This document shows, in pieces, positions 1 to 24,036 of a DNA stretch of 46,591 nt. The DNA is taken from positions 1 through 46,591 of the forward strand of contig JAQGHY010000189.1 in assembly GCA_028291455.1 (NCBI GenBank), in the 5' to 3' direction. Numbering within the stretch: position 1 is the first letter of the stretch; each line of letters begins with the position of its first letter. The notes below the pieces were generated by a model. It saw nothing but the letters and a program-made list of their open reading frames with translations, had not been told where the DNA came from and did no database searches. This stretch comes from Rubritepida sp. Lineage in GTDB: Bacteria; Pseudomonadota; Alphaproteobacteria; Acetobacterales; Acetobacteraceae. The translations under genes and the position numbers were made by a program.

Positions 1-3000
1 CACGTCGCCGGCCGCGACGCAGCAGAATTTCGGGAGCGGGACGAGTATGGAGTGCTTGAAACCCTAGCCGATCCAACCCGCGAGCACGCATTCTGCGTTG
101 TGCAAGGCGAACCAGGCTCCGGGAAATCCCACCTGATCCGATGGATTGCGGTCAATTGGCCAGTCCCCACCGATATCAAGCTGCTTCTCCGTCGTGCAGA
201 TGGGAGTCTTGAAGGCGCGCTGAGTCAACTGCGCGACCGCCTTCCAAGCGAGTTTGCTCCTCTCTTCGACAACCTAGGGCAGCGCCAGAAGGCGTCGTCA
301 CGAGGCCGTGCGAACATCTTTTTGAGCACCCTCGCCAACACACTCGAGCCAGGGCACTTCGACAAGGAACAACCTGACGAGGACTGGTGCAAGCGCTTGG
401 CGCCTGCCGAGTTGCTTGCTCACCTCAGCATCAAAGAGCGCTGGAAGGCGCCGTCCCGAATTCTCAACCTCCTCGAAGGTGCAGGGGGTGGGCGGAACTC
501 AGCGACCGCCTCATTCGACTTATTCGATATCCAAGAACTCGCCGACCTGTGCCCAGCGTTGCGCGGTCAGGCATCGATAGTGAGTTGCCAAGAACTTGTA
601 CGAAGGCTCGAACGCGAGTCCAATTCGATCAGAAATTATCGAGATCAGGAGTGGCTCGCGGACGAATTGGCAAGTGAGCATGAAGACCAATTCCCGACCA
701 GCATCGCTCTAATCAGAGCGCTCAACCTGCGCCGCAACGACGCCATTCAGAACGTGCTGGGTGTGTCGGCACAGGGCCTTAAGACTCTATTCCGCCAGGT
801 GCGCGAAGCTCTCGCGGAGCGTGGGCAGCGACTGGTGCTACTGCTTGAGGACATCACCAGTTGGGAAGGGCTCGATGACAGTCTCATCGATGTGCTGGTG
901 TTCAATGCAGCAGCACGCGGCGAAGATGATGAGAAGCCGATCTGTCCGCTGATCTCGGTCGTGGGTGTAACACCCGCCTATTACGACAAGCTGCAGAGCA
1001 ATTACCGGCAGCGCATCACCCATGAAGTTCAACTGGGCCAAGCTATCGACGGTCTTCAGGACGTGGCCACACTGCGTGGCAGCGAGACGCGACGCCAGTT
1101 CGCTGTTCGGTATCTCTCGGCGGTCCGAGCTGGTCCTGCTTTGCTCAATGAGTGGTTCAAAAAAGTACGATCGGGTAGTGACGTATCGCCTCCCAATCTG
1201 TGCGAAGCCTGTCCGCGCCAGGATAAGTGCTTTGCGGTGTTCGGAGATGTATCAGGCATCGGACTCTTTCCGTTTACGGAGCATGCCTTCGATCGCTTCT
1301 TCGAAGCACTCAAGGAGAACGACAATGGCCAGACGTGGAAAACTCCACGAGGGATTTTACAAGCCATATTGAACCCTAATCTGGTGCAGCCCGAAAGCCT
1401 CGGCGCCGGAACCTATCCCACCAGTTTCATTGAACCGGACGCCTTTCGAGCCGACCGACGATCGGATTTGGCGCTCGTTCCCCGACTGGAGCAGATTGTC
1501 AACAACAGGATCGATGCCCCGGCCGAACGCTCACGGATGAGGCGGATGCTGGCTTATTGGGCCAATCCCAATCGAGCCGACACTGAAAATGTTGCTGGAG
1601 ATCTTACATTCGCGGGCGCATCTCAATCAATCTTCGAAGCTTTCGGACTGCCATGGATCGGCGGAGATGCCACGAACACCCCGGCTGCGCCGTCCGGACC
1701 GGTCATTCTTCCGCAACCCATTATCACGCCTGCACCGACGGAGGAGGTTGAGGAGCCTGATCCGGTCGCGAAGCTGCAACTTGGTTCTTTTGCACGCCCC
1801 GCACGTCCGGCAGTTAGGGCGCCTAAACCCAAACGGCTGATGCCGAATAAAAATGAGCTTGAGCAGCTTAGAGAAGAAATTCGGACTTGGTCGACCAGCG
1901 GTAAGATCGAGAACAGCGCCAAATGGAACGAAATCCTCTACCTGATCGTGGAGCAGATTGATCTGCGAGCTATACACGTGACGCCGCCGCTCTTTAAGAA
2001 AGTCCTCACTAAAGAGATGGTAAAGTTAGAAGGTACAACCACTCGCCACCTTAACTATTTTGTGCTTCCGACCGAATTGTGGGTTCGGAACGGACTCGAG
2101 GCATTCGTTTCATTGCGTCAAGACACTGAAATGACACTTGCCGACGCCGAGTATAATCGCCGCAATCTTACGGCAATGATGCGCCGGTTGCAGCGCTCGG
2201 TCGCATCGTTCATCGATAGCAAAGTCCCGAAGCTTGCCGACGGCGGCCGCTGGGCACCGGTGAAGACTTTTGCTCAGATCCTCCTAGCGAGGGCCTATCT
2301 TCGTGGTGCGGCGCGAGCAGACGCACCGCTCGTCGATCAGATGAGGGCGGTATTGAGCGACGAAGGATTGTCGGAAACCGACTTCTCCGCACGCAGCATG
2401 CCGTGGCAAGAATGGTTGAACGCAACGAAGGGCTTTCACGAACGCCTCCGGCTGGAATTGCGAGCGATGGTCAGTCTTCGCCTTGGCGATGCTAAAGAAG
2501 GCATGGGTGGCGGCTCAGCGCTTGTAGATGCAAGTGATCTCGCCACCGCAATCGTACAATTCAACGAGAGCGGAAAGTTTGACCCGATCCCAGAAGAGAG
2601 TGCCGGACTGCCCGAACTCTATCGCAAGGCTCGCGAACTCGCGCAGCATTGGACCGAAAAGTGCTTCCAGATTGAGCGTGTTGAGCATGAACAAATTACG
2701 GGCAGAAGCCAAAGCGTGTCTTCCCTGCTACGTGGCAGAGATATCGTAACCCATGTCGCACGCTTGGATACTTGCATAAGCGGAATTGTGGGCCAACTTC
2801 CGAGCGTCGCCATCGCCAAAGTTCAAAACTGGAAACAAACATTTGTCCGTCTAAGTCCGAAGCTTGATGAAGGTGCCGGCGCCCGTATCGAGGAGTTGAT
2901 CCTCGCGCTGGAGGACGAAGTGCTTCCCGTAAAGCTGTTGCCCCGCCTGACTTGGCTAGCGCATCAACCCGTTCGAGATCTCCAGGACGTGTTGACGACG

Positions 3001-3147
3001 CTGCAAGCAGGGGAGCGGGCCGTCGAAGAACTACGCGATCACGCGCGCGACTGCGTCTGGGAAGCAGGTACCGGATCGCTTGAGGATGTGCATGCCGTCG
3101 GACGGGCGATCCGTTTGGCAGTCATTGACTTTGAGTTGGAGGAGTAG
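1..3147 (+). CDS. Large P-loop ATPase of a putative defence system (5' partial)
   Basis: The frame is open to the left edge, so the true start lies outside the window; an internal GTG at 52 is only an apparent start. About 1048 residues are visible, numbered here from the first base. A Walker A motif GEPGSGKS is at residues 36-43 and a Walker B-like stretch LVLLLEDI at about 278-285. A cysteine group C-x2-C-x5-C (401, 404, 410) could bind zinc. The second half is helical, with a Pro- and charge-rich linker near 550-600. The early ATPase module plus Cys cluster plus long helical tail recalls the large ATPases of Dpd (DpdH) and BREX (PglY/BrxC) systems; this is a resemblance by eye, not a proven assignment. 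It is followed 4 bp later by a small helical protein gene and faces the helicase-nuclease unit. Likely role, inferred: ATP-driven sensor or loader for the nucleic-acid-processing partners. Confidence 0.75.
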   Translation, partial: HVAGRDAAEFRERDEYGVLETLADPTREHAFCVVQGEPGSGKSHLIRWIAVNWPVPTDIKLLLRRADGSLEGALSQLRDRLPSEFAPLFDNLGQRQKASSRGRANIFLSTLANTLEPGHFDKEQPDEDWCKRLAPAELLAHLSIKERWKAPSRILNLLEGAGGGRNSATASFDLFDIQELADLCPALRGQASIVSCQELVRRLERESNSIRNYRDQEWLADELASEHEDQFPTSIALIRALNLRRNDAIQNVLGVSAQGLKTLFRQVREALAERGQRLVLLLEDITSWEGLDDSLIDVLVFNAAARGEDDEKPICPLISVVGVTPAYYDKLQSNYRQRITHEVQLGQAIDGLQDVATLRGSETRRQFAVRYLSAVRAGPALLNEWFKKVRSGSDVSPPNLCEACPRQDKCFAVFGDVSGIGLFPFTEHAFDRFFEALKENDNGQTWKTPRGILQAILNPNLVQPESLGAGTYPTSFIEPDAFRADRRSDLALVPRLEQIVNNRIDAPAERSRMRRMLAYWANPNRADTENVAGDLTFAGASQSIFEAFGLPWIGGDATNTPAAPSGPVILPQPIITPAPTEEVEEPDPVAKLQLGSFARPARPAVRAPKPKRLMPNKNELEQLREEIRTWSTSGKIENSAKWNEILYLIVEQIDLRAIHVTPPLFKKVLTKEMVKLEGTTTRHLNYFVLPTELWVRNGLEAFVSLRQDTEMTLADAEYNRRNLTAMMRRLQRSVASFIDSKVPKLADGGRWAPVKTFAQILLARAYLRGAARADAPLVDQMRAVLSDEGLSETDFSARSMPWQEWLNATKGFHERLRLELRAMVSLRLGDAKEGMGGGSALVDASDLATAIVQFNESGKFDPIPEESAGLPELYRKARELAQHWTEKCFQIERVEHEQITGRSQSVSSLLRGRDIVTHVARLDTCISGIVGQLPSVAIAKVQNWKQTFVRLSPKLDEGAGARIEELILALEDEVLPVKLLPRLTWLAHQPVRDLQDVLTTLQAGERAVEELRDHARDCVWEAGTGSLEDVHAVGRAIRLAVIDFELEE

Positions 3148-3151
3148 TGGC

Positions 3152-3856
3152 GTGGGCGATGCACTCCTTGAAGCCGAAGAGCTCCTCGAACAACTTCCAG
3201 CGGCGGTTGTCAGGCGTGAACTCGGGGATCGACTTGGCAAGGCGCTCAACGATCTGAGCACGTCCGATCGCCAGGTCCGAAGGATAAAGGACGCCCTTAA
3301 GATCACCAAATTGATACAGTTTGGCAGCATCAATCATCAGCGCGAAGCCCTCACCACCATGGTCGATTGGGCGCTCACGGTAGGAGAGGATCTAGAGAAG
3401 GCCCAAGACGCGGAGGCGCTACGAAAGGCAGTTTACGACTATACGAAAGACCTCAACAAATCGATCGCCGACCTCGAACGTTTGATCCGACAGCATTGGC
3501 AATCCGTTGTTACGGAGCGTTTTCAGCCCCTCCGCGGCCTCGGTGAGCTTCTGGCACTGATGAACGTGTCAAATGATCTGGGCCAGAGGCTGAAGCGGTG
3601 CGGTGAAATGGGTCAGGCTTCGACCAGCGTAGTTTCAAATACAGAATTGCTGTCCACCATCGAGAATCTACTCGCTCAATATGAGGATTTGCAGGAGGAG
3701 CGCAGGCGAGAGATCAGCGAGGATGAAGTCGGGGACTTCATCAACGCTTTAGCCGAAAAGCGAGCGACACTAGTGATGGTTACGTTGAAAGTTCGCGAGT
3801 GGCTGGCTGACCACAATGCGCTGGATCGCTTAGGGCTCACTACCCGCCAGCTATAA
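3152..3856 (+). CDS. Uncharacterised 234-residue helical protein, ATPase partner
   Basis: The start chosen is GTG at 3152, because a strong ribosome binding site GGAGGAG (3138-3144) lies 7 nt upstream, inside the end of the ATPase gene. The longer frame from 3080 would overlap the ATPase by 68 bp with a poor N-terminus. The product is almost entirely charged helix, rich in Leu, Glu, Arg and Gln, with probable coiled-coil stretches near residues 75-130 and 175-215. I see no signal peptide, membrane segment or catalytic motif, and I do not recognise the family. The 4-bp gap to the ATPase stop suggests a single transcript and a physical partner, perhaps an adaptor or scaffold. Its last 17 bp overlap the 3' end of the convergent helicase gene. 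Confidence 0.7.
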   Translation: MGDALLEAEELLEQLPAAVVRRELGDRLGKALNDLSTSDRQVRRIKDALKITKLIQFGSINHQREALTTMVDWALTVGEDLEKAQDAEALRKAVYDYTKDLNKSIADLERLIRQHWQSVVTERFQPLRGLGELLALMNVSNDLGQRLKRCGEMGQASTSVVSNTELLSTIENLLAQYEDLQEERRREISEDEVGDFINALAEKRATLVMVTLKVREWLADHNALDRLGLTTRQL

Positions 3857-6800
3857 AGCTCTGCAACAGCGAACGGCTGACGCTGGCTTCCACCAAACTG
3901 TCGCTCATAAGGTCGCTCTGCTGATGCACACAACTCCTGCAACCGTCGGCACAGAGGGGCGCTGCTAGCCGGAAAATCTGCTCCGCAACACGTGCTCCGG
4001 GCGTCAGCGACCCTTCGGCGTTTGGATCATGCTCCGCATAAGCGGTGTAGAGCCTATGCAATACCCCTGCTTCACCAGTTGTCGCCGCTGCGACGCCCGC
4101 CGAGGCAAGTTCCCACCCCGCAACTGGCCGATCCAATCCATCGAGCAAACGCCCCCGAACCGCCTCGATATCCGAGGCAAGATCGTAAAGCGCGAAGGTT
4201 TCCGCCTCGACCGCCTCCTGCGCGAAAAGGATACGAGCGAGCACGGGCGGCACCTTCTCAGCGCCTGGCTCTAAATCCGACGCGATCATGGCAAACGTGA
4301 TGGCGTCGCGCGGGTCCATTTGTCGCCAGGCCGCGTGACGATCGGTCATTTCCCAGAACCGCCTCACCATCGCGTCTTCGTCGGCATTCGGGCAAGCGCC
4401 GAGGAAACCGGAACCGACCAACGTGGCAACGGCCTCCCAGTTGTCGATCACTCCGCGCAGGGTCCCGTCGCCATGCGCGCCGGCCTCGCAGACGGTGACG
4501 ATCGTGTCGCTGTTCTCGCCAAATTGGAGAGGCAGCAGCACATGGGCGAGCAATTGCCGCTCGGCGCCCTGGCCAACCTGCGCGACGAGGAGTTTCAGGC
4601 GCAAGGCTAGGCCGTGAAGGATGGCCGAGCGGAGATATGCTCGAAAAGCCTCATCGTCGCGCGCCTCCCTTAGCGCCTCCGTCAGAATTGGATGAAACCC
4701 ATCGATTCCGAGCGCAATCGCAGCGCGCTCAACGCGCGCCGCGGTCATCATTGGATGCTGTCCAAGAAGCTGGTCACGGACCCCGACAAACAGCGTTTTC
4801 AGAGCGTCCGGAGACCAAAAGCGCCCAAGACGGCGAAGCTGTGAACTGAAAGAAGGGTGTACCGCGGCTGCGATGATAACGGCACCGAGCCGTGCATCGT
4901 AGCCGGCTATGCCTATCGCCCGACCACGACTCTCGACGAGATAGCGAAGGAACTGGGCCTCATGCCAACGACGCCGGCCAGGAGCCTTGGAAAGTTCCTC
5001 GACGACGGTGTCGATAAAACCGTCAAGCCGTTCGCGATCAATCGTGAATTGCAATCCTTCAGTGGCGACCTGATAGCCGTGCAGTAGCGGACGTCCGCTG
5101 TCGGGGTCGGTGAATATCTGCGAGATGCTCAGTGGGACCATACCCGGCTGTTTGAAGCGGACCTCTGCGTCAGCGCCCCAAAACACGCGCGCAACGTCCA
5201 GTCCCGACGGCTTGCCTGCGGTCTGATCGCCGACGTAGGCGACAACCTCGGCGATTTGAGGTAACGCTTTGGCAACAACCCTAATCGCGCGGGAATGATC
5301 TGTTGCCACTAGCAGGAATCCCCGCAATCCGGCGTGAGAATCATGCCGCAACGGAATCGGCCCAGGGTCATTGACGTCCAAATGCACAAACGTTGGGTCG
5401 CGGTCGGGCGCGAAGCCGATTTCGGGCGTCCAGTCCGCGCCTGCCATCCATCCCATAGGCTCGAGTGTTGCAATGACCGGACGACATAGGTCGCTATGAA
5501 TGCCTGCCAGTGACGCGCGTACGTCGACGGGCAATTCGGCAAGCAGTGCTGCGCTGTCGGACCGCAACGGCTGGCGCTCTGCGGAAGTATAGTCGGTGCT
5601 CGCGAGCCAGGGCGCACGACCATGGACTGGCGGACGCCAGTGTACAACGGAACTGCTGTATCGACGAGTGGCGTTGCCGGGCGCGATGGCCGTTAGGGCC
5701 AGCCCGATATCCTCAGCTCCGCCCCCACCGACGTGGCGGCCGGCGACCGTGAGCGCCGGCAGATTGATTGTATCGAAGAGGAGATTAGGGGCCCACCGGA
5801 GCCCGCGGCGAAGCTCGCTGAGAAAGCGAGGCGAAAGGGCAGGTTGAGCGGCGATCGCGGCAGCCCAGAACTCCTCTACGCCGGCGACCCTTAATTCTGC
5901 CCAAATGTCTGAGCCTAACACCCGCTCCGCAAGCTCGCCGGCCTTGACAAGCATCGCGCGTTTGGGCACGAGGCCGGGTCTCAATTCCTCGCCGCGCGCA
6001 ACGCACCGCGCCAGGCCGTCGAGGATTGCTGTTAGCGCCTGACCGCGCCGGACGAAGAAATTGTCGGGATTGATCGGAATGCGGAACCCTGATGGCGAGA
6101 TCATCTCGGCCGGGCGTCGAAAAAACCAACCGTCTCGCGGCGAGTAGATCGAGAGCGTCACTGCCGTCGTTGGGCGATCGTCGGCATTGCGCCCGCCCCG
6201 CCCCTTGCGCTGAACGAAGCTCGCGACGTTCTTCGGCGCGTAGTGCTGATAGACCAGCGTGATGTCTGGGTCATCGTAGCCCACCTCAAGCGAGGAGGTC
6301 GCAAATACGATATCTGATCCTTTCACGATCGCTTCGGCATCGCTGTTGGTGCCTGAATAAATGGGCGAACGCGCAACGCGAAGCGGGCTTCCGGGCACAC
6401 GACGTCCGGCTGCACCACGTTGATGAGGGTCATTTGCCGCGAACCACCAGCATTCGCCGTCAGCAAACTTGTCGCAGCCTATCGGCTCCCGGCAACATTC
6501 CGTCTGAGGCTGACCATTAGCATCGTCACCGAAGTCGGTGATCCGAAGAGACGCCAGTTCCTTGCCTTCTTCGGCGTCGGTGTAGGCTCCATGGAGGCGC
6601 CGCATCTTGTCGATGGAATCAAAGAATACGAGGCCGCGATAACCACCCGAAACGCTGGTGCGCCTCCGCATTCCATGACCGATGCACATTAGCCTCTGGA
6701 TTGTGGTCGACGCGCCTGCGATATCGGCACCTCGCGATTCGACTTCCGGTTGAATAAAATAGAATACCTCGCGGCCGCGAGGATTGATCTCAAGCTGGTC

Positions 6801-9800
6801 GGGATTGGGCCGGATGGTGCGAACATCGTCCCGACCGATCAGCCGGCCCCAAGCATCGCCGGGGTCGGACATGGTGGCGCTCATTCCGATCGAGACGAGC
6901 GACCGTCCGTCGCCCGCATTACTCTCGGCGCGTGCTGCGAGGCGACGAAGGGTCATCCCCACCTGGGCGCCGTGGATGTGCGTGTAGAGATGGATTTCGT
7001 CAGCCAGAAGAGCTCTAGGCGCGGCAAAGTCCGAGCAGTCGCCAAATAGCGCGCCATAGCGAGGGTCGTGCAACCACTGATGCAAACTGTCGGTCGTCGG
7101 TAGAAAAAGGGACGGTGGACGCTGACGGAGTTTCGCCTTCGATCCGATCCAGCCGTCGTACCGCCAATCTCCGGTGGAGCAGACGAGCGCGTCCGCGCCG
7201 TTCCGTCCTCCGTCGACGCGCAAGTGAAGACCATGGCCGCAGATCGGGCACGCGAAGAAGGGGAATTCATAGGCGCCCGGACCGGCACCCCGCCAAGCAT
7301 CACGATAGCGCTCCTGCATGGCCTCGAAACTATCCGGAACGTCCGAGACTTGGAGACCGAGCGTCAGCAGGGGCAAATCGGGGACACTTGCTAACGCGGA
7401 GAGATAGCCTGCGAGACGCTGCGCCTGGTTGGCCGCCAGCCGGATGCGCGGATAGGCCAGAATTGCTCGAACACCGACAATGCCTTCCAGCGCATCGCCA
7501 AGCGCGCCGGCAATCAAAGGTAGGACTGCGGCCTCTGTCTTCCCTGATCCGGTATCTGCCGCGATGGCAAGGCTCGGAGAACCCTCCCCCCGCCACGCTT
7601 CGAGCCCTTCCAACAATCCTCGGCGCTGAAAGTCTGCCAGGGAGGCGCCTTCTCCCCACTGCCCTGCGAGTGAACGACACAGACCTTCTAGCGCCTGACA
7701 TTGGGCCGGGGTCGCGACAGAAATTGCCTCATCGAAAACCACGCGCAGAGGCTGGTTGCGCACGGGCTTGTTCCGATCGCGCAGTTCCACCTTCAAATTG
7801 CGGACCAGGTACGGCCGGTCTGCCGCATCGTCGTTCTTGAAGCGCTGCTTTACGTGCCGAACCTCGCGGGCAATCTCGGCGACACGACTACGAACGCGCG
7901 CATCTTGGGCGAGCATGACATGGCTATTGGCCTCTAGCCGCGAGAGCGCTGACAGCACCTCATCGGCCGACCGTTGAGCAGTGCGCGCGAGTGCGACGGT
8001 CGAGGTCCAAGAGTCGAAGATGCCAAAATTGATCCGAGCCGCTTCGATATCTTCGAGATGATTTAGCAGCAAGAAATCATCGTCGGTGGTCCCTGGTAAC
8101 GGCTCATCGGGTACCTCGTCGGCAACTTCGGTGATCGGAACCACGATCGAAATCGTCATCGCGCCGCCGGCCGCGCCGAGTATCAGAAGGCCTTCCGACT
8201 GAAGGGTCTGGATGATCGGTAACAAGATGTCCTCGCCCCGCTCGGACATCCAGGCAAAGCGATCACGCGCCTGGCCGTAGAAGCAATATCTACCCGATCG
8301 CGCCTCGCGGATCACCGCTCCGATCCGGGCGCGCGCCGCTTCGATCTCCGCCGGATAGACTCGACGGGGCGCTTCGAAGGGCTTGGCCTGCCAAAAGCGT
8401 CCTAAGCGACCGTCGCGTTCGGTCAGAGATATCCAGCCACGCATGTGGAGGAGGCGGGCATCCGTGAACGGTTCCGTGGCCATCGCCATCGCCCGCTTGA
8501 CCTGACTGAGCCCGGCCGTCCCAAAATTGTTGCCGGCAGCGACGCGGCGGATTGCGGCGAGCAAACCCTCCAATGCGGGCGTCATCTCCGGAGCCTGCTC
8601 CTCGACCTCCGGATCAGGTGTCAGATCCAATTCGAGGCTGTCGCCTTCAAACCCACGTCCACGTATCTGCGTGCGGACTTGGCGTCCGGAGGGTCCATCA
8701 AGCACTGTCTCCACGAGCAGGTCGCACGAGTAGACGAACTCGCGGAGCAACTCCGCTTTATCCATCGTCTCCTGTTCACCGGGAACGGCCTCGAGAAGCC
8801 GCCGACTGATGATGAGCACAAGCTTCGTCCGCGCGCGGGTCGAAGCAACGTTGAGCCGTTCCGGAGAGAATATAAACTCGGCTTCAGCCAGGGCGAATTC
8901 GGGATCCGAAACGCAGTAAGAGAGGATGACGGCATCTCGCTCCTTGCCCTGGATCCGATCGACGGTCTCGACGAAGGCGCCCGACCTGAGCGTTGCCGGC
9001 ATCATCGCGCGGATTGCAGCATTCTGCGCTCGGTGAGGGCTGACGACAGCCGCGACTTCGGACCAGAATTCGGCGGTCGTTGGCCGCCCATTCTTCCCCA
9101 CAACTCTATCTGCCAATTCAGACGTAAATTTGGCCGCAAGGGCTGCCTCGAAGGGATTGGAGGTAGCGCCGGCTAGCCCATCATGCACCAGAATGACGAC
9201 GGGAAGCCCGGGGTCCAGCGCGATGCGGGATACCAGGCAGAGACTGTCACGCCAATCGCTCCGCAGATGCAGACGAGTGGTCGGGGCGGCAGAGAAGTAA
9301 CGGCCCGGGTAGAACTTGCGCTCGGGGAATTGGGCCAGCGGCCCGTTAAGCCGGAAGGTTTCTTCGAGCGGAAACTCTGCGGCCTGAGCCGACTTCAGAA
9401 ATGCATAGAGTGACCCGCCTAGTTCCCGATCGTCGATCCGCGTGGACCGCATGGACCGCACCGGCGGCAATTGCTGGTCATCTCCGGAAACGACGATACG
9501 GCAATCAGGGGCCATCCCGGCTAGGGCCATAAGCCCTTGACTGAGCACCATCTGCGAGGCTTCGTCGATGCAGACTAGATCGAACAACGGTGCCGTCGGA
9601 CCGTCGACCGTGGGCAGAACTCCCGAGCTTATGAGACGATAGAGCGACCAGATCGTCGCGCCGATTACGACTCTGCCGCTCGCAATCTCCTGAGCGAGTT
9701 CGGCTTCGTCACCGCGCCCGAGCACCTGCACGCTGGATGCGAGACCGCCGCTCGGCGGCGATCCGAAATATATAGGAGCTGGCGCGGTAGTGTCATGGAC

Positions 9801-10160
9801 TGCATGGCGTTTCGATACCGCATCGAGAACATTGCCAACCGCATTCTTTGTGAACGCTGTGACGAGCGTGCGGGCCGGGCGTTCATTCGCCGGCCGCACG
9901 GCGCCGAACCCGGCAATCAGCCACGAGAGGAGATGGGTCTTTCCGGTGCCAGGAGGGCCTAGAACGAGGCCCACTCGCTTGTCCGCAAGGCCGCGCCAAG
10001 CTGCGACCTGAGCTGGCCTAAGCGAACGATCGCCGGTCGCGGCGATGGAGGGGATCGCGAAGCCATCGAGTCCCTGGACCCAAAGGTCCCCATCGCGTGC
10101 CGTGGCTGCGAAATCGCTCGGGCTCCTGAGGAAACTCAGGATATCTTCGCGCGTCGTCAT
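3840..10160 (-). CDS. Giant double helicase: Dna2-like SF1 fused to SF2/DUF1998-type helicase
   Basis: The 2106-residue protein carries two complete motor modules. The N-terminal SF1 module resembles the Dna2/UPF1 helicases: GPPGTGKT (68-75), DEAS (199-202), GDDQQLPPV (226-234), IQGKERDAVILS (403-414) and a motif VI ending in TRARTKL. A middle region of about 460-850 may hold winged helices. The second module is SF2: DTGSGKT (869-875), DEIH (1054-1057), a SAT motif soon after, and QRKGRGGR (1317-1324). A CPIC pair (971, 974) is inserted between the first two SF2 motifs, and another Cys-rich patch lies near 1240. The C-terminus has C-x3-C-x2-C-V-H (2070-2079), like the DUF1998/MZB cluster of DrmA/DrmB, DpdJ and DruE helicases. 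The ATG overlaps the nuclease stop codon (ATGA), so the two are coupled. Inferred role: unwinding or translocating foreign DNA for the nuclease. Confidence 0.85.
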   Translation of the reverse strand: MTTREDILSFLRSPSDFAATARDGDLWVQGLDGFAIPSIAATGDRSLRPAQVAAWRGLADKRVGLVLGPPGTGKTHLLSWLIAGFGAVRPANERPARTLVTAFTKNAVGNVLDAVSKRHAVHDTTAPAPIYFGSPPSGGLASSVQVLGRGDEAELAQEIASGRVVIGATIWSLYRLISSGVLPTVDGPTAPLFDLVCIDEASQMVLSQGLMALAGMAPDCRIVVSGDDQQLPPVRSMRSTRIDDRELGGSLYAFLKSAQAAEFPLEETFRLNGPLAQFPERKFYPGRYFSAAPTTRLHLRSDWRDSLCLVSRIALDPGLPVVILVHDGLAGATSNPFEAALAAKFTSELADRVVGKNGRPTTAEFWSEVAAVVSPHRAQNAAIRAMMPATLRSGAFVETVDRIQGKERDAVILSYCVSDPEFALAEAEFIFSPERLNVASTRARTKLVLIISRRLLEAVPGEQETMDKAELLREFVYSCDLLVETVLDGPSGRQVRTQIRGRGFEGDSLELDLTPDPEVEEQAPEMTPALEGLLAAIRRVAAGNNFGTAGLSQVKRAMAMATEPFTDARLLHMRGWISLTERDGRLGRFWQAKPFEAPRRVYPAEIEAARARIGAVIREARSGRYCFYGQARDRFAWMSERGEDILLPIIQTLQSEGLLILGAAGGAMTISIVVPITEVADEVPDEPLPGTTDDDFLLLNHLEDIEAARINFGIFDSWTSTVALARTAQRSADEVLSALSRLEANSHVMLAQDARVRSRVAEIAREVRHVKQRFKNDDAADRPYLVRNLKVELRDRNKPVRNQPLRVVFDEAISVATPAQCQALEGLCRSLAGQWGEGASLADFQRRGLLEGLEAWRGEGSPSLAIAADTGSGKTEAAVLPLIAGALGDALEGIVGVRAILAYPRIRLAANQAQRLAGYLSALASVPDLPLLTLGLQVSDVPDSFEAMQERYRDAWRGAGPGAYEFPFFACPICGHGLHLRVDGGRNGADALVCSTGDWRYDGWIGSKAKLRQRPPSLFLPTTDSLHQWLHDPRYGALFGDCSDFAAPRALLADEIHLYTHIHGAQVGMTLRRLAARAESNAGDGRSLVSIGMSATMSDPGDAWGRLIGRDDVRTIRPNPDQLEINPRGREVFYFIQPEVESRGADIAGASTTIQRLMCIGHGMRRRTSVSGGYRGLVFFDSIDKMRRLHGAYTDAEEGKELASLRITDFGDDANGQPQTECCREPIGCDKFADGECWWFAANDPHQRGAAGRRVPGSPLRVARSPIYSGTNSDAEAIVKGSDIVFATSSLEVGYDDPDITLVYQHYAPKNVASFVQRKGRGGRNADDRPTTAVTLSIYSPRDGWFFRRPAEMISPSGFRIPINPDNFFVRRGQALTAILDGLARCVARGEELRPGLVPKRAMLVKAGELAERVLGSDIWAELRVAGVEEFWAAAIAAQPALSPRFLSELRRGLRWAPNLLFDTINLPALTVAGRHVGGGGAEDIGLALTAIAPGNATRRYSSSVVHWRPPVHGRAPWLASTDYTSAERQPLRSDSAALLAELPVDVRASLAGIHSDLCRPVIATLEPMGWMAGADWTPEIGFAPDRDPTFVHLDVNDPGPIPLRHDSHAGLRGFLLVATDHSRAIRVVAKALPQIAEVVAYVGDQTAGKPSGLDVARVFWGADAEVRFKQPGMVPLSISQIFTDPDSGRPLLHGYQVATEGLQFTIDRERLDGFIDTVVEELSKAPGRRRWHEAQFLRYLVESRGRAIGIAGYDARLGAVIIAAAVHPSFSSQLRRLGRFWSPDALKTLFVGVRDQLLGQHPMMTAARVERAAIALGIDGFHPILTEALREARDDEAFRAYLRSAILHGLALRLKLLVAQVGQGAERQLLAHVLLPLQFGENSDTIVTVCEAGAHGDGTLRGVIDNWEAVATLVGSGFLGACPNADEDAMVRRFWEMTDRHAAWRQMDPRDAITFAMIASDLEPGAEKVPPVLARILFAQEAVEAETFALYDLASDIEAVRGRLLDGLDRPVAGWELASAGVAAATTGEAGVLHRLYTAYAEHDPNAEGSLTPGARVAEQIFRLAAPLCADGCRSCVHQQSDLMSDSLVEASVSRSLLQSFIAGG

Positions 10161-12454
10161 GGCTGCACCTGCGCGCCCAAGAAGGTCAAGAATCTGTCGG
10201 CCTTCGCCGAGTTGAGATCAACGAAGCTTTGATCCAACCACCAACCGTCTTGGCCGGCGCGGCGCTTCACCTCCTGAAAGTACTGGCCGTTGAACGTCGG
10301 CCGAAACATCCGGACTGTCAAAAAATTGGAGGGGTCGCCTGCCCACGGATCCATGATTTGACATCCCATGGCGGACCAAAGGCGTGGCTCGAGGACCATA
10401 TCGGGCTCGCCGTCGCTTAAGATCAGCCCGAAAGCGCCGGACGATAGATTCGCAGCCTCGGCCTCCCGAGGTATCGAGAAACGAAGGAAGGCCCAGCGCC
10501 CTTTTTCACTCACATTGATGAGGCGCATCGGGCCGATGGCGTGCCCGGCGTCGCGGCGCACACGGGTCGGCCGAGCAAGCTGGATCATCGTGTCCAACAA
10601 GCCTGCTCGGTTTTCGAGTAGTTCGAAGGCACGCAGCACGTTGAGGTCGCCGGCGTCAAGTGGGTTGAAGCTGGCCTGCAAGCGGAATGGCTGCTTGTTG
10701 AGCCGCAGCATAGGCGGTTCGGATGCGGCCACCCGACGCTGGTGCTCGATCCTTAACCAATCAGCGATCGATTGGCTCGCCGCCAGTCGAGCCGTTACGT
10801 CCTCCCGTATGGAGGCTGCATCTGGGCCGTGCCCCCGCCCTTCGCGTAGATGGCGGCTGACATCGAGCGCCAGCAAGGACGAAAATGGGCGCTCAAAATC
10901 CGGCGAGGGCGAGTAGGCCTCGGCGATCAAACCGGCGCGCTGGAGAGCGGCGGATACCTGACGGAGATCGTAGGAAACCGTCACGGGCAGCGAAAGAAGT
11001 TGTTCGACGACGCTTCGCAGTGCTGTCGCTGGAAGATGCTGCATCCCGCGAAATTCGGGTTCGGGAACCACCTCATCAGGGGGGAAGAGGCGGACCATGT
11101 GGAGTAGACCCATGCGGACGCGGGGGTCTTCCATGTGCCGCTTCACAGCATTCTGGATCGCGAGACCCTCGGTGGTCTCATACAGGAAAATATGAGCGTA
11201 CAGGCTCGCAGGATCTGTTGGATCGCCGATTGCCTCGTTATGGGCGTCGATTGCTTCCAGGTCGGCAACAAGGCGCCCGAAAACGGAGACCAGCGCGTTC
11301 GCCTCCGCGGCGTGATCCGCGGTCGGCATAATTTCGATGTGTTCGCGTGCTCCAGATGCATCGACGTACCGATAGCCGAGGGTCACCAGCGTGTCGTCGA
11401 CAGGGTCATTGTCGGCAACGAGATAGATCGCCGCATCGGATCGGGGCGGCATGAGAAAGCTTTGCGGTTCGGTGCCGGGTCGAACGATGTCGTCGCGGAG
11501 AGCTTGCGCCCGACTGACAAGTTGATCCGCCCGCCTAGAAAGGGACCAGCCGGCGCCGTCGATTCGGCCAACACCGGCGCCGAGATCGGCGAGCCCGGCC
11601 ACCGTGCCAATACCGATCGATAGCAGCGTTCGCTTGGCCTCGTGGCTAAGTCCGGCAACGGCAGAAACGTCGCGCGTCCGTGCCGATCGGTTCGGCCCAA
11701 CCGCCTCGATGCAGTGTGGCAGGTAAGAGCATTGCTCGCATTTGAAGTAGACGTGGAAGAACGTCTCGTCACGACCTCGGGCAACGACTTTGTCCGCAAT
11801 CGCCGGTAGCGTGGTTCGGCAGAAGTCATCGACCAGCCGAAGATACGGCTTGAGCACGAATTCTTCTGACGTCCATCGATCATCCTCGGCATCGCCGTCA
11901 TCTGGAATCCGCCAGATTTCGCCTATCGGCTCAACTGTCGCGTCGACGCCGAGTTCCGCCAGCATCGCGCGCAGCAGCATGGCGTAGAAGGCCACTTGCG
12001 TCTTATGAAAGGCGCGTGCGGCCCGGGTCGCCTTGATGTCGATGACTGTGAAGTGAAGTCCGGTTGACCGAACTTCACGCTGGATCAGATCGGCAAAGCT
12101 TCTACGCAGCTTGATGTCGGCCCCGCCGAGGAAGGCCGGCTTGCCGCGGGGACGCAGATTCACCTGCGCTGCGAAGGTCGCTGTGCCCTGCCCCTTGAGA
12201 AAGGCAACAGCTTGACGTTCGAGCAGTCCCTGTTCGCCAGGAGCGGGACGAAGCACGCCGATTTCGCGAGCGAGTCTGGTTACGACCCGATCTTCGAAAA
12301 CGACACCCAGGGTCGCCCAAGGTTGCTCGCGCTGATCCTTGGCGACCGGGATGGAGGCGAGTTCGGTGGGATCCATAATCTCGTAGCGGGTCTTCCGCTC
12401 GCAACGATATTGGAACCAGGATTTGATAGTCGAACCACTCAGGCCAGAAGCCAT
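10157..12454 (-). CDS. Cas4/TM0106-like PD-(D/E)XK nuclease with Fe-S cluster
   Basis: The 765-residue protein matches the layout of TM0106-type RecB-like nucleases. An N-terminal Cys (C18) and C239, C242, C248 form the four-cysteine set expected for a 4Fe-4S cluster, as in Cas4, AddB and Dna2. The nuclease core shows D113 (GGAD), D139-I-K141 and Q153 followed by a helix ending in Tyr (the QhxxY motif). A helix-hairpin-helix-like segment follows at about 265-292. Then comes a region starting IYLVADNDP (343-351), which sits where related proteins have an RNase H/DnaQ-like exonuclease fold; its acidic residues look altered. The gene is first of a two-gene unit and its TGA overlaps the helicase ATG. 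In many bacteria this nuclease and a Dna2-like helicase are one polypeptide, so the pair here looks like a split version. The start is ATG, with no strong ribosome binding site. Confidence 0.85.
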   Translation of the reverse strand: MASGLSGSTIKSWFQYRCERKTRYEIMDPTELASIPVAKDQREQPWATLGVVFEDRVVTRLAREIGVLRPAPGEQGLLERQAVAFLKGQGTATFAAQVNLRPRGKPAFLGGADIKLRRSFADLIQREVRSTGLHFTVIDIKATRAARAFHKTQVAFYAMLLRAMLAELGVDATVEPIGEIWRIPDDGDAEDDRWTSEEFVLKPYLRLVDDFCRTTLPAIADKVVARGRDETFFHVYFKCEQCSYLPHCIEAVGPNRSARTRDVSAVAGLSHEAKRTLLSIGIGTVAGLADLGAGVGRIDGAGWSLSRRADQLVSRAQALRDDIVRPGTEPQSFLMPPRSDAAIYLVADNDPVDDTLVTLGYRYVDASGAREHIEIMPTADHAAEANALVSVFGRLVADLEAIDAHNEAIGDPTDPASLYAHIFLYETTEGLAIQNAVKRHMEDPRVRMGLLHMVRLFPPDEVVPEPEFRGMQHLPATALRSVVEQLLSLPVTVSYDLRQVSAALQRAGLIAEAYSPSPDFERPFSSLLALDVSRHLREGRGHGPDAASIREDVTARLAASQSIADWLRIEHQRRVAASEPPMLRLNKQPFRLQASFNPLDAGDLNVLRAFELLENRAGLLDTMIQLARPTRVRRDAGHAIGPMRLINVSEKGRWAFLRFSIPREAEAANLSSGAFGLILSDGEPDMVLEPRLWSAMGCQIMDPWAGDPSNFLTVRMFRPTFNGQYFQEVKRRAGQDGWWLDQSFVDLNSAKADRFLTFLGAQVQP

Positions 12455-12491
12455 GGCATCCTCTTGCCACCAGATGCCCGGTCAGTGTTGT

Positions 12492-12504
12492 GCCACGTCG
12501 TGGC
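12492..12504. promoter_or_regulatory. 13-bp perfect palindrome upstream of nuclease-helicase unit
   Basis: The sequence is GCCACG-T-CGTGGC, a perfect dyad around one central base, 38 bp upstream of the nuclease ATG. Its position in the leader suggests a regulator binding site or a small hairpin in the 5' untranslated region. No regulator gene is visible in the window. Confidence 0.35.
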
Positions 12505-12511
12505 CTGCCCT

Positions 12512-12537
12512 ATTAGGTGGTCCGGAGTGAACCTAAT
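12512..12537. promoter_or_regulatory. 7-bp inverted repeat, candidate operator of nuclease-helicase unit
   Basis: ATTAGGT (12512-12518) and ACCTAAT (12531-12537) are perfect inverted arms separated by 12 bp, about 58-83 bp upstream of the nuclease start. The centre-to-centre spacing of 19 bp is close to two helical turns, as for a dimeric repressor. AT-rich arms in an otherwise GC-rich leader also fit a promoter core. The function is inferred from position and symmetry only. Confidence 0.35.
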
Positions 12538-12882
12538 GCATGATCGCCTGTCTGTCATATCGGACGTTGCGGCTGCGGCGGGTGTGGCCTGTATCGCTGT
12601 CACCGCGATCGCCAGCAGACGCCGCGCCATCGCTGCTTCCAGCGTCCGCTCAACATCATCGAATCAAAGCCGCGGCGTCGGATCAACCCAACCACGCACT
12701 GTCTCATTGGCGGATGCTGGAATCGAGGAACAGCCGCACGTTGCGGATATCCCAATTGTGCGATTCAGCGCCCACAACGACGAGGCCCTGGCTGCCCGTT
12801 CAGCACATCGGGTGCTTCTTGCGCGATATGCGCGCGATACGGCAATCGTATACAGCACCATCGGCTATGCAATTGATAAGAT

Positions 12883-12959
<77 letters not shown>

Positions 12960-13224
12960 ACGCCGAAGCCTAGGTAGCGCAAGAGTTCTGCCCAGGGAAG
13001 GCCCGCTCACTGGTGTCAGGCACCATTTGAGCGGCCTGGCGCCTCGCCCATTTCGACGGCGCGACTTGCTGGTCCACGGCTTCCGTGCACAGCCGTTCCA
13101 TCTCATCGCCCGAGCTTTTTGCACCACCCGGCGGCGGAATGGACGCAGGCGCCCCCGGCATATGAGTTTGGTTGCCGGTGCATCGCCCCTCGTTCAGGCT
13201 GCCCACGAAGAACCAGGAGCCCGC

Positions 13225-14196
13225 ATGAACACTCCAAACGATTGGCCGCGCCCCGTGGATGGCCTGATTACCCCCCGCTTTGCAGGCCCCGCGACCTTCA
13301 TGCGCCTGCCCCTGCGCGACAGCGCCGAGGACGTCGACATCGCGCTGCTCGGCATTCCCTTCGACGGCGCGGTCACCAACCGCCCGGGCACGCGCCACGG
13401 CCCCCGTGCCCTGCGCGAGGCTTCGACGCTCATGCGCCGCGTGCATCCGGTGAGCCTGATCGAGCCCTATACCCTCTGCCGCGTCGCCGATCTCGGCGAT
13501 TCCGAGACCAATCCAGTCGACGTGATGGGGACGCTCGCCCTCGTCGAGGCGCGGGTCGCTTCGATCCGCGCCACCGGCGCCTGGACACTCGCCGGCGGCG
13601 GCGACCACCTGATGTCCTTGCCCATCCTGCGCGGCATCATCCGCGCGAAGCTGGGGCTGGCGCCACTCGGCATGGTTCATTTCGACGCCCATTCGGATAC
13701 CGCCGACACCAATTTCGGCGGCAGCCGCTTCACCCACGGCACCCCCTTCCGCCGCGCGATCGAGGAAGGCCTGTTGGATCCGAAGCGCATCGTGCAGATC
13801 GGCATCCGCGGCTCGCTTTACGAGAAGGACGACATGGCGTGGGCGCAGGAGGCCGGCATCCGGATCATCCGTATCGAGGAATGCGAAGAGCTGGGTCCCG
13901 ACGGCGTCGCAGCCGAGGCGCGCCGCGTGGTCGGCAAGGGCCCGGCCTACCTCACCTTTGACATCGACAGCCTCGATCCGGCCTTCGCTCCCGGCACCGG
14001 CACTCCTGAGGTCGGTGGGCTCACCCCCCGTGAGGCCATGCGCATGCTGCGCGGCCTGCGCGGGCTCCAGTTCATCGGGGCGGATGTGGTGGAGGTCTCG
14101 CCGCCCTTCGATCCCGGCGGCAATACCGCCATGGTCGGCGCCACCATGATGTTCGAGATTCTGTGCCTTCTGGCCGAGGCGCGGGCCAGTCGATAA
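13225..14196 (+). CDS. Agmatinase-family ureohydrolase
   Basis: The 323-residue protein belongs to the arginase/agmatinase superfamily, which hydrolyses guanidino compounds to urea and an amine at a two-manganese centre. All metal-binding motifs are present in order: GGGDH, then FDAHSDT, then FDIDSLDPAFAPG followed by GTPEVGG. The ATG at 13225 has AGGAG at 13215-13219; the frame opens further upstream but those codons look non-coding. The substrate cannot be read from sequence: agmatine, guanidinobutyrate, guanidinopropionate and free guanidine hydrolases share these motifs. A peptide/opine-type ABC importer lies downstream on the same strand, beyond one intervening gene, which may hint at an imported guanidino compound. 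No nickel-insertion genes are beside it. Confidence 0.9.
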   Translation: MNTPNDWPRPVDGLITPRFAGPATFMRLPLRDSAEDVDIALLGIPFDGAVTNRPGTRHGPRALREASTLMRRVHPVSLIEPYTLCRVADLGDSETNPVDVMGTLALVEARVASIRATGAWTLAGGGDHLMSLPILRGIIRAKLGLAPLGMVHFDAHSDTADTNFGGSRFTHGTPFRRAIEEGLLDPKRIVQIGIRGSLYEKDDMAWAQEAGIRIIRIEECEELGPDGVAAEARRVVGKGPAYLTFDIDSLDPAFAPGTGTPEVGGLTPREAMRMLRGLRGLQFIGADVVEVSPPFDPGGNTAMVGATMMFEILCLLAEARASR

Positions 14197-14240
14197 CCTG
14201 CAGGGAAGGGATTGAAAGCGCGCCCATAACCCGCGACATT

Positions 14241-15002
14241 ATGCAGGTGCAAAGCCGCACCCGACGCCCGCAGTTCTTCTACACCACAACGCCCCTCCCC
14301 TGCCCTTATCTGGCGGGACGGACGGAGAGGAAGATTGTGACCGAGCTCACGGGCCCGGATTCGGAGGCGCTGCACGACCGGCTTTCACGCGCCGGCTTCC
14401 GCCGCAGCCACAATATCGCCTATTCGCCGGTCTGCCCCGGCTGCCGCGCCTGCATCCCGATCCGGGTGCGTGCGGCCGATTTCGTGGCCAACCGCACCCA
14501 GCGCAAGATCCTGTCCCGCAATGCCGACCTCGAGGTCCGTGCGACCCCCGCCCGCGCCACGGCCGAGCAGTTCGCGCTGTTCCAGCACTACCAGCAGACC
14601 CGCCACCCCGGGGGCGACATGGCCGCGATGGGTTTCTACGACTACCGCGCCATGGTCGAGGACACGCCGATCACCACCGGCATCGTCGAATTCCGCGATG
14701 CCGCGGGCAAGCTGCTGGGCGGCTGCCTGACCGACTGGCTCTCGGACGGGCTCTCGGCCGTCTACAGCTTCTTCGCCCCCGAAGAGGACCGGCGCAGCCT
14801 TGGCGCCTTTGCCGTGATGTGGCTGATCGCCGAAGCGAACCGCATCGAGCTGCCCTATGTCTATCTCGGCTATTGGGTCCCGGAGAGCCGGAAGATGTCC
14901 TACAAGGCCGGTTATCGCCCCGCCGAAGTGCTGATCCAGGGCAGTTGGCGCCCCCTCGGCGAAGAAGTGCCCGTGAACGGCGAGACCGTCAGCGCAGGCT
15001 GA
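14241..15002 (+). CDS. bpt: Aspartate/glutamate leucyltransferase Bpt
   Basis: The 253-residue protein is a bacterial member of the arginyl-tRNA-protein transferase family (ATE/Bpt). It moves leucine from Leu-tRNA to proteins with N-terminal Asp or Glu, marking them for ClpS/ClpAP degradation. Visible hallmarks are the N-terminal PCPYL motif, the Cys group CPGCRAC, and the C-terminal block containing YLGYWV and KMSYK. The ATG at 14241 gives the normal family length of about 250 residues, although no strong ribosome binding site precedes it; upstream codons in this frame overlap the ureohydrolase gene. It is 44 bp from that gene and may share its transcript. A role in a common pathway with its neighbours is not evident. 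Confidence 0.92.
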   Translation: MQVQSRTRRPQFFYTTTPLPCPYLAGRTERKIVTELTGPDSEALHDRLSRAGFRRSHNIAYSPVCPGCRACIPIRVRAADFVANRTQRKILSRNADLEVRATPARATAEQFALFQHYQQTRHPGGDMAAMGFYDYRAMVEDTPITTGIVEFRDAAGKLLGGCLTDWLSDGLSAVYSFFAPEEDRRSLGAFAVMWLIAEANRIELPYVYLGYWVPESRKMSYKAGYRPAEVLIQGSWRPLGEEVPVNGETVSAG

Positions 15003-15097
15003 GCCGCTTTCCGCTTCCCACCCGCCCCCGCAACGACCTAGCATCCCTGCGAATTGCACGGTCCTGGCAAAAGGATCGGCAACGGGGGATAAACACC

Positions 15098-16711
15098 ATG
15101 AGCGTCACGTCACTCTCAAGGCGGCATCTGGCGCGCCTTCTCGGAGCCAGTGCGGCCGCCTTGCCGTTCCTATCGGGCGGCAATGCGCTGGCGCAGGCGC
15201 GGGGCAATACCCTCGTCATCGGCCTCGACATCTCCGACACCATCACCTTCGATCCGGTGCGGCAGGCGCAGTACACGCCGCCGATGACGCTGGCCGCTTG
15301 CTACGACAGCCTGATGACGCTGGAGGCGAACGACCTCATCAACCCCAAGCCATCCCTCGCCACCGCCTGGGCACGGACGCCGGACGGCAATGGCTGGCGC
15401 TTTACCTTGCGGCGCGATGTGCGGTTCGCCAGCGACGCGACGTTGACGGCGGAGGATGTAAAGTTCTCCTTCGACCGTATCCTCGGCATGCAGGAACAGA
15501 CGCAGCAATACATCAAGGCCGTCGATCGCGTGGAAGTGGTGGACGCCCATACGGTAGACTTCATCCTGAACTCCCCCAACGCGCCGGTGCTGCCGATCTT
15601 CTGCAACCCCGGTTGCGGCATCACCGAGAAGGCCGTGCTAATGCGCCAAGGCGCCACCTTCGGCCCCGGCGCCAAAGACACCGACCGCGCGACGGAATGG
15701 CTGAACAACAACTCCGCCGGCACCGGGCCTTACCGCCTCGGGCGCTGGGAGCGGAACGGCCAGATCCAGCTTCTGCGCAACCCCAACTACTGGGGCACGG
15801 CGCCAGCCTTCGAGCGCGTCATCATCCGCCATCTGTCGGATAGCGCTGCGCAGCTGCTGGCAGTGAGGCGCGGCGACGTGCACGCGGCCTTCAACCTGAT
15901 CCCGGAGCAGATGGCGACACTGCGCAGCGATCCGAACGTGCGCGTGGAGCGGCTGCCCAGTCTCGACTTCGTCTACATGGCCGTCACGCAGAACCCGGCC
16001 GCCAATCCTGTGCTGGCGAAGAAGGAGGCGCGGCACGCGATCGGTCACGCCATCGACTATGACGGCATCCTCAACAACCTGCTTGGCGGCGTCGCGCTGC
16101 GGCCGGCGCATTTCCTGCCAATCGGCGTGAACGGGAGCACCGAGCAAATCGCGCGGCAGGTCGGCTTCAGCCAGAACCTCGACCGGTCGCGGCAGTTGCT
16201 GCAGCAGGCCGGCGTGCCTGATGGCTTCGAGATGGAAATCGCATACGGCAACGCGGCGGTCGCCGGTATTTCCTACCAGGTGCTGGGCCAGAAGCTGCAG
16301 GCCGATCTTGGACGCGTCGGCATCCGCGTGCGGCTCAATCCGATGGACCAGGTGAACATCCGCACCGTCTATACCCAGGGCCGCGAGGCCGGCGGCGTGC
16401 TGACCTTCTGGAACCCGCCCGCCGTCTGCAACGACCTCTGGGCGAGCGCAGTGGTGGAGCGCGTTGCGCGGCGCGTCCATTGGACCGTTCCGCCGGAAGT
16501 GACTGCTCTCGTGAAGCAGGCTTCGGAGGAGCAGGACCTCGACACGGCGGCCAGTCTCTGGGTGGAATGGCAGCGGCGCATGGTGGATGAGGCGCATCAC
16601 TTCATCCTGTTCCAGCCGATCTACCAGATCGCCGTGCGCAACAGCCTCCGTGATTTCCCGCTGACGGCGGCCGGTTGGCAGCTCGAGATGGCGCATATCA
16701 AACCGGCCTGA
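15098..16711 (+). CDS. ABC transporter periplasmic binding protein, peptide/opine type
   Basis: The 537-residue protein is an SBP family 5 (DppA/OppA-like) extracytoplasmic solute-binding protein. The N-terminus has a Tat-like signal, SRRHLARLL followed by a hydrophobic run and ALAQA, cleaved near residue 30. The mature part shows family features: a start strand with LVIGLDISD, the PSLATAW and LRRDVRF blocks, EDVKFSFDR and GTGPYRL. The ATG at 15098 follows a GGGGGA ribosome binding site; the frame extends upstream into bpt but without a signal peptide. It begins the four-gene importer cluster. Family 5 proteins bind di- and oligopeptides, opines, nickel or glutathione, and the ligand here is unknown. 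Confidence 0.93.
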   Translation: MSVTSLSRRHLARLLGASAAALPFLSGGNALAQARGNTLVIGLDISDTITFDPVRQAQYTPPMTLAACYDSLMTLEANDLINPKPSLATAWARTPDGNGWRFTLRRDVRFASDATLTAEDVKFSFDRILGMQEQTQQYIKAVDRVEVVDAHTVDFILNSPNAPVLPIFCNPGCGITEKAVLMRQGATFGPGAKDTDRATEWLNNNSAGTGPYRLGRWERNGQIQLLRNPNYWGTAPAFERVIIRHLSDSAAQLLAVRRGDVHAAFNLIPEQMATLRSDPNVRVERLPSLDFVYMAVTQNPAANPVLAKKEARHAIGHAIDYDGILNNLLGGVALRPAHFLPIGVNGSTEQIARQVGFSQNLDRSRQLLQQAGVPDGFEMEIAYGNAAVAGISYQVLGQKLQADLGRVGIRVRLNPMDQVNIRTVYTQGREAGGVLTFWNPPAVCNDLWASAVVERVARRVHWTVPPEVTALVKQASEEQDLDTAASLWVEWQRRMVDEAHHFILFQPIYQIAVRNSLRDFPLTAAGWQLEMAHIKPA

Positions 16712-16780
16712 TGCCGCTCTTGTTGATCGTCGCAGTCCATCCGGCGCAGGATCGCCGCAACGAAGGGAGACCACGTCCAA

Positions 16781-23291: not shown

Positions 23292-24036
23292 TCTCACTCG
23301 GTCCCGTCATGGTGGTAAGGCGGTCCTGCAGCATTTCCCGCGCCGAGGGCAGCGGGCGGTGCTGGTGGCCGAAGGCGTCGCGGGCGAGGAAGAAGCCCGT
23401 CAGCCGGAGTCCCGCAAGCCATTCCTTCGCGTCAGAGGCTTGCGCGTCGTCTCGCAGGAAGGCCGGCAGCGGCAGGAGGCGATCCGCATAAGGCGACCCT
23501 GCCGCTTCGCTCACCGCACGGCCGGATTTCGGCGAGACCCAGACCAGGCCTTCCGTCGCCCCGCTGGCGGCACAGCTGGTCAGGTCCAGGCCATAGCCGA
23601 GTTCCGCCAGCAGCGCGGCCTCCCAATGAACCAGCAGCGGCAAAGCGTGCTCCGGCCCGCGCGCCAGCGCGGCGATAACACGGACGAGGCCGTGGAAGCA
23701 GGCGGGATGCGCCTCGCGCTCGGGCAGCGCGCCCTCGGCCACGGCGCAGGCGGCGGTCAGCACGGCGAGCGCCAGCGGATCGTCCAGGGCGGCGGAGGCG
23801 GCGGCATGCACCATCTCGCCGGAAATGTGCCCGAGCTGATCGGGTAGCCGTGCAATCCACCGCGCCTCGACCAGATTGCCCGGCTGCCAGAGCGCCGCCT
23901 GCCCGCGTGAGGCGCCGCCCTTGGCGAGGCCGGCATGGCGGCCCTGCGCCTCGGTCAGCAGCGTGACGACGGCACCGCCCTCGCCATGCTGGCGCACGGC
24001 CAGCACGATGGCCGGCGCCAACCACTCGACGGTCAT
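23284..24036 (-). CDS. recO: DNA repair protein RecO
   Basis: The 250-residue protein matches RecO, which with RecR loads RecA on SSB-coated single-stranded DNA. An N-terminal OB-fold is indicated by [19 protein letters not shown] and the following GLAKG; the helical C-terminal part has FFLARDAFG near the end. The usual RecO zinc cysteines are not complete (a lone Cys pair at AACAVAE and PACFHG, and one in LTSCAA). The ATG at 24036 is supported by GAGGG 7 nt upstream; a longer frame to 24063 lacks this. Its end overlaps parC. Placement after era is the common rnc-era-recO arrangement. Confidence 0.9.

Follow-up and report, generated by a model that had tools for sequence, protein, structure and literature searches.

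The stretch of DNA analysed here (the window, 46,591 nucleotides, from the start of contig JAQGHY010000189.1 of Rubritepida sp.) carries in its first 12,454 bases a large ATPase, a small helical protein, a long helicase and a nuclease. Gene content indicates that these genes belong to a Dpd (7-deazapurine-in-DNA) restriction-modification island of ~30 kb, which is located at a tRNA-Arg gene and cut by the contig end. We consider it probable that this tRNA-integrated island possesses a predicted split Dna2-like effector, encoded by the nuclease gene and dpdJ, in the place of DpdK and DpdD. What the analysis shows is gene content, family identity, conservation, pairing of the genes and the domain division of the structure models; assembly of the two proteins, the effector role of the nuclease and its replacement of DpdK are inferred.

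A Dpd island divided between two contigs

The genome is a draft of 356 contigs, and one of them (C3) supplies the window, from its first base onwards. Another contig of the same genome, C86, carries, in this order, a tyrosine integrase, dpdC, dpdB, dpdA, a second dpdB, queC, queD, queE, dpdF and dpdG, and then breaks off after the first codons of dpdH. DpdA was found by a profile search at C86:21565-22827, with 539 bits for a cut-off of 200. The two dpdB genes (up to 389 bits), dpdC (179 bits), queC, queE, dpdF and dpdG were detected by tblastn, the last two being named via their homologues in G189, a genome of the same family, and Pfam recognised QueC and PTPS (QueD). Genes for preQ0 synthesis are the usual companions of Dpd systems, although they do not strictly define them. 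A homologous DpdH aligns by its residues 5-42 to the end of C86 and by its residues 42-1096 to the start of the window, and the two contig ends have 7 bases in common. Because this set of genes runs from C86 into the window start, we assign the locus to Dpd. The 3′ part of the tRNA-Arg gene (12883-12928) is repeated at C86:12835-12880, with 44 of 46 bases identical, beside the integrase; the two copies mark the ends of the island.

A sequence-only reading of the window had placed all four genes correctly. It was also right in describing two converging units, which overlap by 17 bases, and in reporting a GC content lower than that of the adjoining chromosome (55-63% over positions 1-13000, 65-73% over 13001-46000). 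Its proposal of an undescribed system, in a window without dpdA or deazaguanine genes, does not hold. These genes are indeed missing from the window, only because it begins at base 1 of C3, and the dpdA present on C86 places the locus in a known system, the very outcome which that reading had named as its refutation.

In PADLOC, the ATPase and the double helicase match models over nearly their full length, DpdH (PDLC02884, 1179 bits, profile 89-1130 of 1136) and DpdJ (PDLC02895, 2769 bits, profile 1-2109 of 2112). Matches of this length, together with the invariant motif residues of the nuclease and DpdJ (see below), are more than chance would give. The nuclease is named by no Dpd model in PADLOC or NCBIfam. 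DpdH (242.5 bits, cut-off 450), DpdI and DpdJ all score under their NCBIfam cut-offs, and the lineage is therefore divergent. DpdI is 39% identical to the G189 protein and has the same position as dpdI in homologous loci. In one of these (L041), ~1 kb of extra sequence lies between the converging dpdJ (ending at 18600) and dpdI (match from 19664). Membership of DISARM, Druantia or BREX was rejected: compared to 2769 bits with the DpdJ model, the best PADLOC scores were 56.5 for BrxH, 40.9 for DruE and 31.6 for DrmA, a comparison of helicases only, with no search made for methylases or PglZ.

It is very hard to believe that the four genes form an unnamed defence system, tied to Dpd only via common helicases. 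The scores under the NCBIfam cut-offs and the nuclease without a Dpd model would fit such a system, but not the Dpd genes that run from C86 into the window, nor the presence of DpdA over cut-off in 28 of 32 carrier genomes (here and below, the 31 genomes of the nuclease scan plus the genome of the window), nor the same gene set on four plasmids, from Caulobacter, Azospirillum, Skermanella and Methylobacterium.

A nuclease and a helicase predicted to form one machine

A 4-base overlap joins the nuclease and dpdJ genes of the window, and 21 of the 25 loci measured have it too. The nuclease matches Pfam PDDEXK_1 just over the cut-off (24 bits for 22), and its profile, searched against PDB sequences, found nothing at E values up to 1. 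Its structure model divides into a predicted Cas4/RecB-like nuclease (residues 2-253), a DnaQ-like fold (340-586) and a superfamily 1 (SF1) helicase stalk/1B barrel (597-763). Residues D122, D139, K141, Q153 and Y157, and cysteines C18, C239, C242 and C248, are invariant in 22 aligned sequences. This alignment, A3, joins the window protein to 21 of 27 open reading frames (ORFs) found for the nuclease. Judged by eye, the first catalytic Asp of the DnaQ-like fold appears replaced.

The model of DpdJ suggests that residues 1 to about 490 are Upf1/Dna2-type SF1 motor domains, fused ahead of the superfamily 2 (SF2) DpdJ helicase with its DUF1998-type cysteines. Both SF1 and SF2 motifs are invariant in 26 aligned sequences (the window protein and 25 loci). 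Cut or broken copies (L050, L051, L053, L054 and L055) were excluded from both alignments, and from a third one, A4, made of the window part and 19 loci. The motor-motif, iron-sulfur (Fe-S) and Upf1-domain labels on the alignments follow what is generally known of these families.

In a fold comparison of the models, the end of the nuclease aligns to Ighmbp2 residues 3-159, and that of DpdJ to residues 160-648. As these are complementary parts of Ighmbp2, the best reading of the models is that the nuclease and the DpdJ N-terminus together make up one Dna2/Upf1-type helicase-nuclease, split over two genes. The combination of a RecB/Cas4-type nuclease with four cysteines and an SF1B motor is Dna2-like by fold and motifs, and in the window and the loci examined it is found on two genes, not in one polypeptide. 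What is common with Dna2 and Upf1/Ighmbp2, in fold and sequence, is the Cas4-like Fe-S nuclease and the SF1B motor; the differences are the two proteins, a DnaQ-like domain that separates the nuclease from 1B, and the fusion of the motor half to an SF2 helicase.

Among 299 genomes of the family, the nuclease matched in 5: that of the window, G189, which has a true homologue, and three with other large nuclease proteins (G175, G112 and G162). The proteins of G175, G162 and Candidatus Chlorohelix are TM0106-type RecB nuclease-helicases, single chains containing parts of both the nuclease and the SF1 motor and, unlike the pair described here, not fused to DpdJ. These three relatives agree with a split machine. 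The 940-residue ORF of G112 matched the nuclease part only. In the 17 kb Chlorohelix stretch, the one neighbourhood of the three that was covered, no Dpd genes are annotated.

We regard it as unlikely that the two proteins are independent enzymes, with a nuclease acting alone and a C-terminal barrel that is no part of the DpdJ SF1 helicase. Such independence is at odds with the complementary alignments to Ighmbp2, with the DpdJ model, which has three helices and no barrel ahead of its first RecA fold, with the single-chain relatives, and with the gene overlap and joint evolution of the pair (see below).

Homologous loci and comparison with classical Dpd

The nuclease was searched for in 84,980 species genomes and found at 32 loci in 31 of them; going by record titles, these are mostly Alphaproteobacteria, but also Nitrococcus, Archangium, a UBP9 and a Cyclobacteriaceae bacterium. 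In 29 of the 32 loci dpdJ comes directly after the nuclease; of the other three, one is degenerate and two break off within the nuclease, where their contigs stop. Co-occurrence of the genes across homologous loci, one part of what the sequence-only reading had asked for, was observed. In a class-wide spread of 385 genomes, DpdA reached E≤0.001 in 77, and exceeded its cut-off in a single one, the genome of the window. At the G189 locus, dpdC, A, B, F, G, H and I face dpdJ and the nuclease, the latter identical to that of Novacetimonas maltaceti (L038). IMG/VR contained one partial nuclease copy, at a contig end, and no other Dpd gene was found on that contig.

Some loci depart from this layout. 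In Roseovarius atlanticus (L042), dpdF, dpdG and dpdH come after nuclease and dpdJ and share their strand, rather than facing them, which is another arrangement of the same set. In Brucella oryzae (L051, JAAVLL010000004.1), the whole locus is frame-broken, with the nuclease in 3 pieces and dpdJ in 8, by decay or sequencing error. Devosia sp. ZB163 has a nuclease remnant adjoining a dpdH remnant (L054, 10001-11716) and an intact locus (L040) in the same genome. Near the Dpd locus of G189, at about 3-15 kb of contig C14 (L007), lie ORFs that, judged from the sequence, resemble a CRISPR array and a type I-E Cse1.

Enterobacter cloacae pPOL9A, Agrobacterium vitis CP146243 and Shinella NZ_CP131131 served as classical controls. 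Classical Dpd has in common with the present locus dpdA, dpdB, dpdC, dpdF to dpdI and the SF2 helicase DpdJ. Annotated dpdD and dpdK are present in pPOL9A and A. vitis, with a DpdJ of 1478 or 1517 residues, whereas here DpdJ has 2106 residues, with the SF1 motor, and adjoins the Cas4-like nuclease; D, K, J and I of Shinella match those of A. vitis at 90-94%. DpdK, a PLD nuclease, was over cut-off in none of the 32 genomes and not detected in the genome of the window, and tblastn with two DpdK proteins of classical systems found nothing in 38 stretches. DpdD was not found in any of the 32 either, by a search that was positive in the control (3 of 12 plasmid records). The SNF2 helicase DpdE never exceeded its cut-off of 500 in these genomes, its best match in the genome of the window (E 6.1e-8) being at the level of ordinary helicases. 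With the window DpdJ, 23 plasmid records were matched, 4 at full length (those with a full nuclease), 9 in the SF2 part only and 10 in the SF1 part only. The nuclease matched 5 plasmid records, and none of the three classical controls is among them.

The sequence-only reading had claimed a composition of its own for the system. The system itself is Dpd; what remains distinctive is its restriction half, where an unnamed nuclease is tied to an SF1-extended DpdJ and where DpdK and DpdD are not detected over cut-off. The nuclease and SF1 extension might still be accessory to a Dpd system, serving in repair or clearing away DNA that was wrongly marked, with a cutter that goes unrecognised, e.g. DpdG or DpdI, two proteins without assigned activity here. 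Recruitment of the pair from among repair enzymes is conceivable, as Dna2 and Ighmbp2/Upf1-type helicases also have roles in RNA metabolism and replication. We give this view little credit, given the strict pairing of the nuclease with dpdJ, its invariant residues, and the lack of DpdK over cut-off, which leaves it as the sole recognised nuclease in the set.

Related systems were compared through published texts, each of the papers cited here being covered in part. The Dpd island is described as dpdA-K, with variable contents (GATOR-GC preprint, PMC11888242). BRIGADE (Bell et al. 2025, PMC12458937) also combines predicted 7-deazaguanine synthesis with YprA-family helicases, and has PLD or sometimes PD-(D/E)xK nucleases; it differs in being reported only from halophilic archaea and in its usually two YprA-like helicases, and no SF1 fusion appears in the text covered. 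In phage 9g and two genomes, tgt genes were reported to have a Cas4-like nuclease and a helicase in their vicinity (PMC5567051), which we take to be a different setting. No description of the nuclease-dpdJ pair was found in the literature searched; three primary Dpd papers, a 2024 review and supplementary tables, outside its scope, may contain one.

Three plasmids carry a dpdC-B-A-B-queEDC operon in other company. On the Bradyrhizobium sp. 41S5 plasmid NZ_CP083722 (L129), an annotated PD-(D/E)XK nuclease of 398 residues and a DEAD/DEAH helicase (14082-17679) stand beside it; neither the window DpdJ nor the nuclease has a match on this plasmid, and these genes may be yet another restriction half. 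On those of S. americanum (L126) and Rhizobium sp. WYJ-E13 (L131), no DpdJ match was found on the record; here the plasmid would mark DNA but have no restriction half that is recognised.

Exchange of modules

The restriction genes of the island are close to versions in other genomes, and its synthesis genes are not. Compared to Rhizorhabdus (L024), identity is 90% for the nuclease, 88% for DpdJ and 82% for DpdH (over the third present there), versus 60% for dpdA, 55% for dpdB and 39% for dpdC; for DpdF and DpdG, identity to the Sphingomonas and Chelativorans proteins is 71-73%. Over 26 loci, pairwise identities correlate at 0.89 for nuclease-DpdJ, 0.39 for nuclease-DpdA and 0.28 for DpdJ-DpdA, values that are descriptive only, as the pairs are not independent. 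Loci L026 and L048 have DpdA proteins 91% identical and nucleases 46% identical.

A tree of dpdA only (39 rows) was suggestive of several module changes. In a tree of five synthesis genes (13 chosen rows), however, the two PLD systems of Rhizobiaceae grouped together (100/100), next to five systems of the nuclease type (82/87), and other nuclease-type rows fell outside. From the trees we therefore claim at least one exchange, and no more.

Other features of the island and its surroundings

Coordinates are collected in Table 1. Between integrase and dpdC (C86:14282-18361, L020), four ORFs were scanned; one matched Pfam (DUF5681) and three had no match. On the chromosomal side of the window (13027-46591), 6 of 10 scanned ORFs had a Pfam match.

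Table 1. Features of the window and, where marked, of contig C86
Feature	Position	Strand	Basis and remarks
dpdH, large P-loop ATPase	1..3147	+	PADLOC, C86 continuity; 5′ end cut by contig start, first ~40 codons on C86
dpdI, small helical protein	3152..3856	+	234 residues; probable GTG start at 3152 inferred; mechanical ORF from 3080
dpdJ, SF1 + SF2	3840..10160	-	2106 residues; PADLOC; motifs; structure model and fold match
Unnamed nuclease, Cas4/RecB-like	10157..12454	-	765 residues; Pfam; invariant residues; structure model and fold match
tRNA-Arg(CCG)	12883..12959	-	ARAGORN; 12883-12928 recurs on C86
Phage_integrase	C86:12988-14313		Pfam, 74 bits
Arginase family	13027-14196		Pfam
Gyrase/topo IV A	21051-23297		Pfam
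GTPase with KH domain	24133-25614		Pfam
Trypsin/PDZ	38743-39729		Pfam
BrkB family	39786-40808		Pfam
TctC	41251-42393		Pfam

Discussion

Dpd systems mark DNA with dPreQ0/dADG by means of DpdA, B and C (PMC12839542), and an unmodified plasmid was restricted over 1,000-fold by the dpd cluster of S. Montevideo (PMC5567051). In the island described here, QueD, QueE and QueC, the synthesis half on C86, would make preQ0, which DpdA with DpdB would insert into the cell's own DNA in replacement of guanine, and which DpdC would turn into the final mark. DpdF, G, H, I, J and the nuclease would be the restriction half, recognising unmarked DNA, with DpdH and the SF2 part of DpdJ acting on it and a Dna2-like helicase-nuclease made of two polypeptides destroying it. 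The nuclease gene would provide the Fe-S RecB/Cas4-like cutting domain, the DnaQ-like domain and the SF1 stalk/1B, and DpdJ the two RecA motor domains, linking the machine to the SF2 helicase. This split machine would occupy the place of the classical PLD nuclease DpdK and of DpdD.

On balance, we favour the view that such loci are a distinct Dpd type, with a split Dna2-like effector (1B on the Fe-S nuclease protein, motor fused ahead of the SF2 DpdJ), in which a two-motor shredder replaces the PLD nuclease and moves as an F-G-H-I-J-nuclease cassette between deazaguanine synthesis cassettes.

Several observations weigh against this interpretation. For the island itself, the C86-C3 join is based on gene continuity and the 7 common end bases in a draft genome, and DpdI matches its NCBIfam model weakly (21 bits, E 2.7e-4, far under the cut-off of 150). 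For the split machine, the 1B match has a middling Z of 9.3, the Foldseek match of the whole nuclease to Dna2 is weak (E 7.3e-4, TM 0.15), and the single-chain relatives cover only parts of the nuclease profile. For the distinct type, DpdA was not found in 3 of the 32 genomes (G303, G325 and G328) and is fragmented in G326; 5 of 32 have PLD proteins that match DpdK weakly, all under cut-off, with NF041068 not run on a known DpdK genome; and a DpdE-like protein is present in 4 of 32 (333-384 bits, cut-off 500), in three of them on the dpdA contig, meaning that DpdE is not always lost.

If the split reading is true, a helicase is divided over two proteins, one half being joined to a second helicase, which is an unusual machine, and a gene is added to Dpd that its present models do not name. 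The variant predicts a concrete effector, with residues that can be mutated, and the loci show base-marking and DNA-destroying modules being exchanged.
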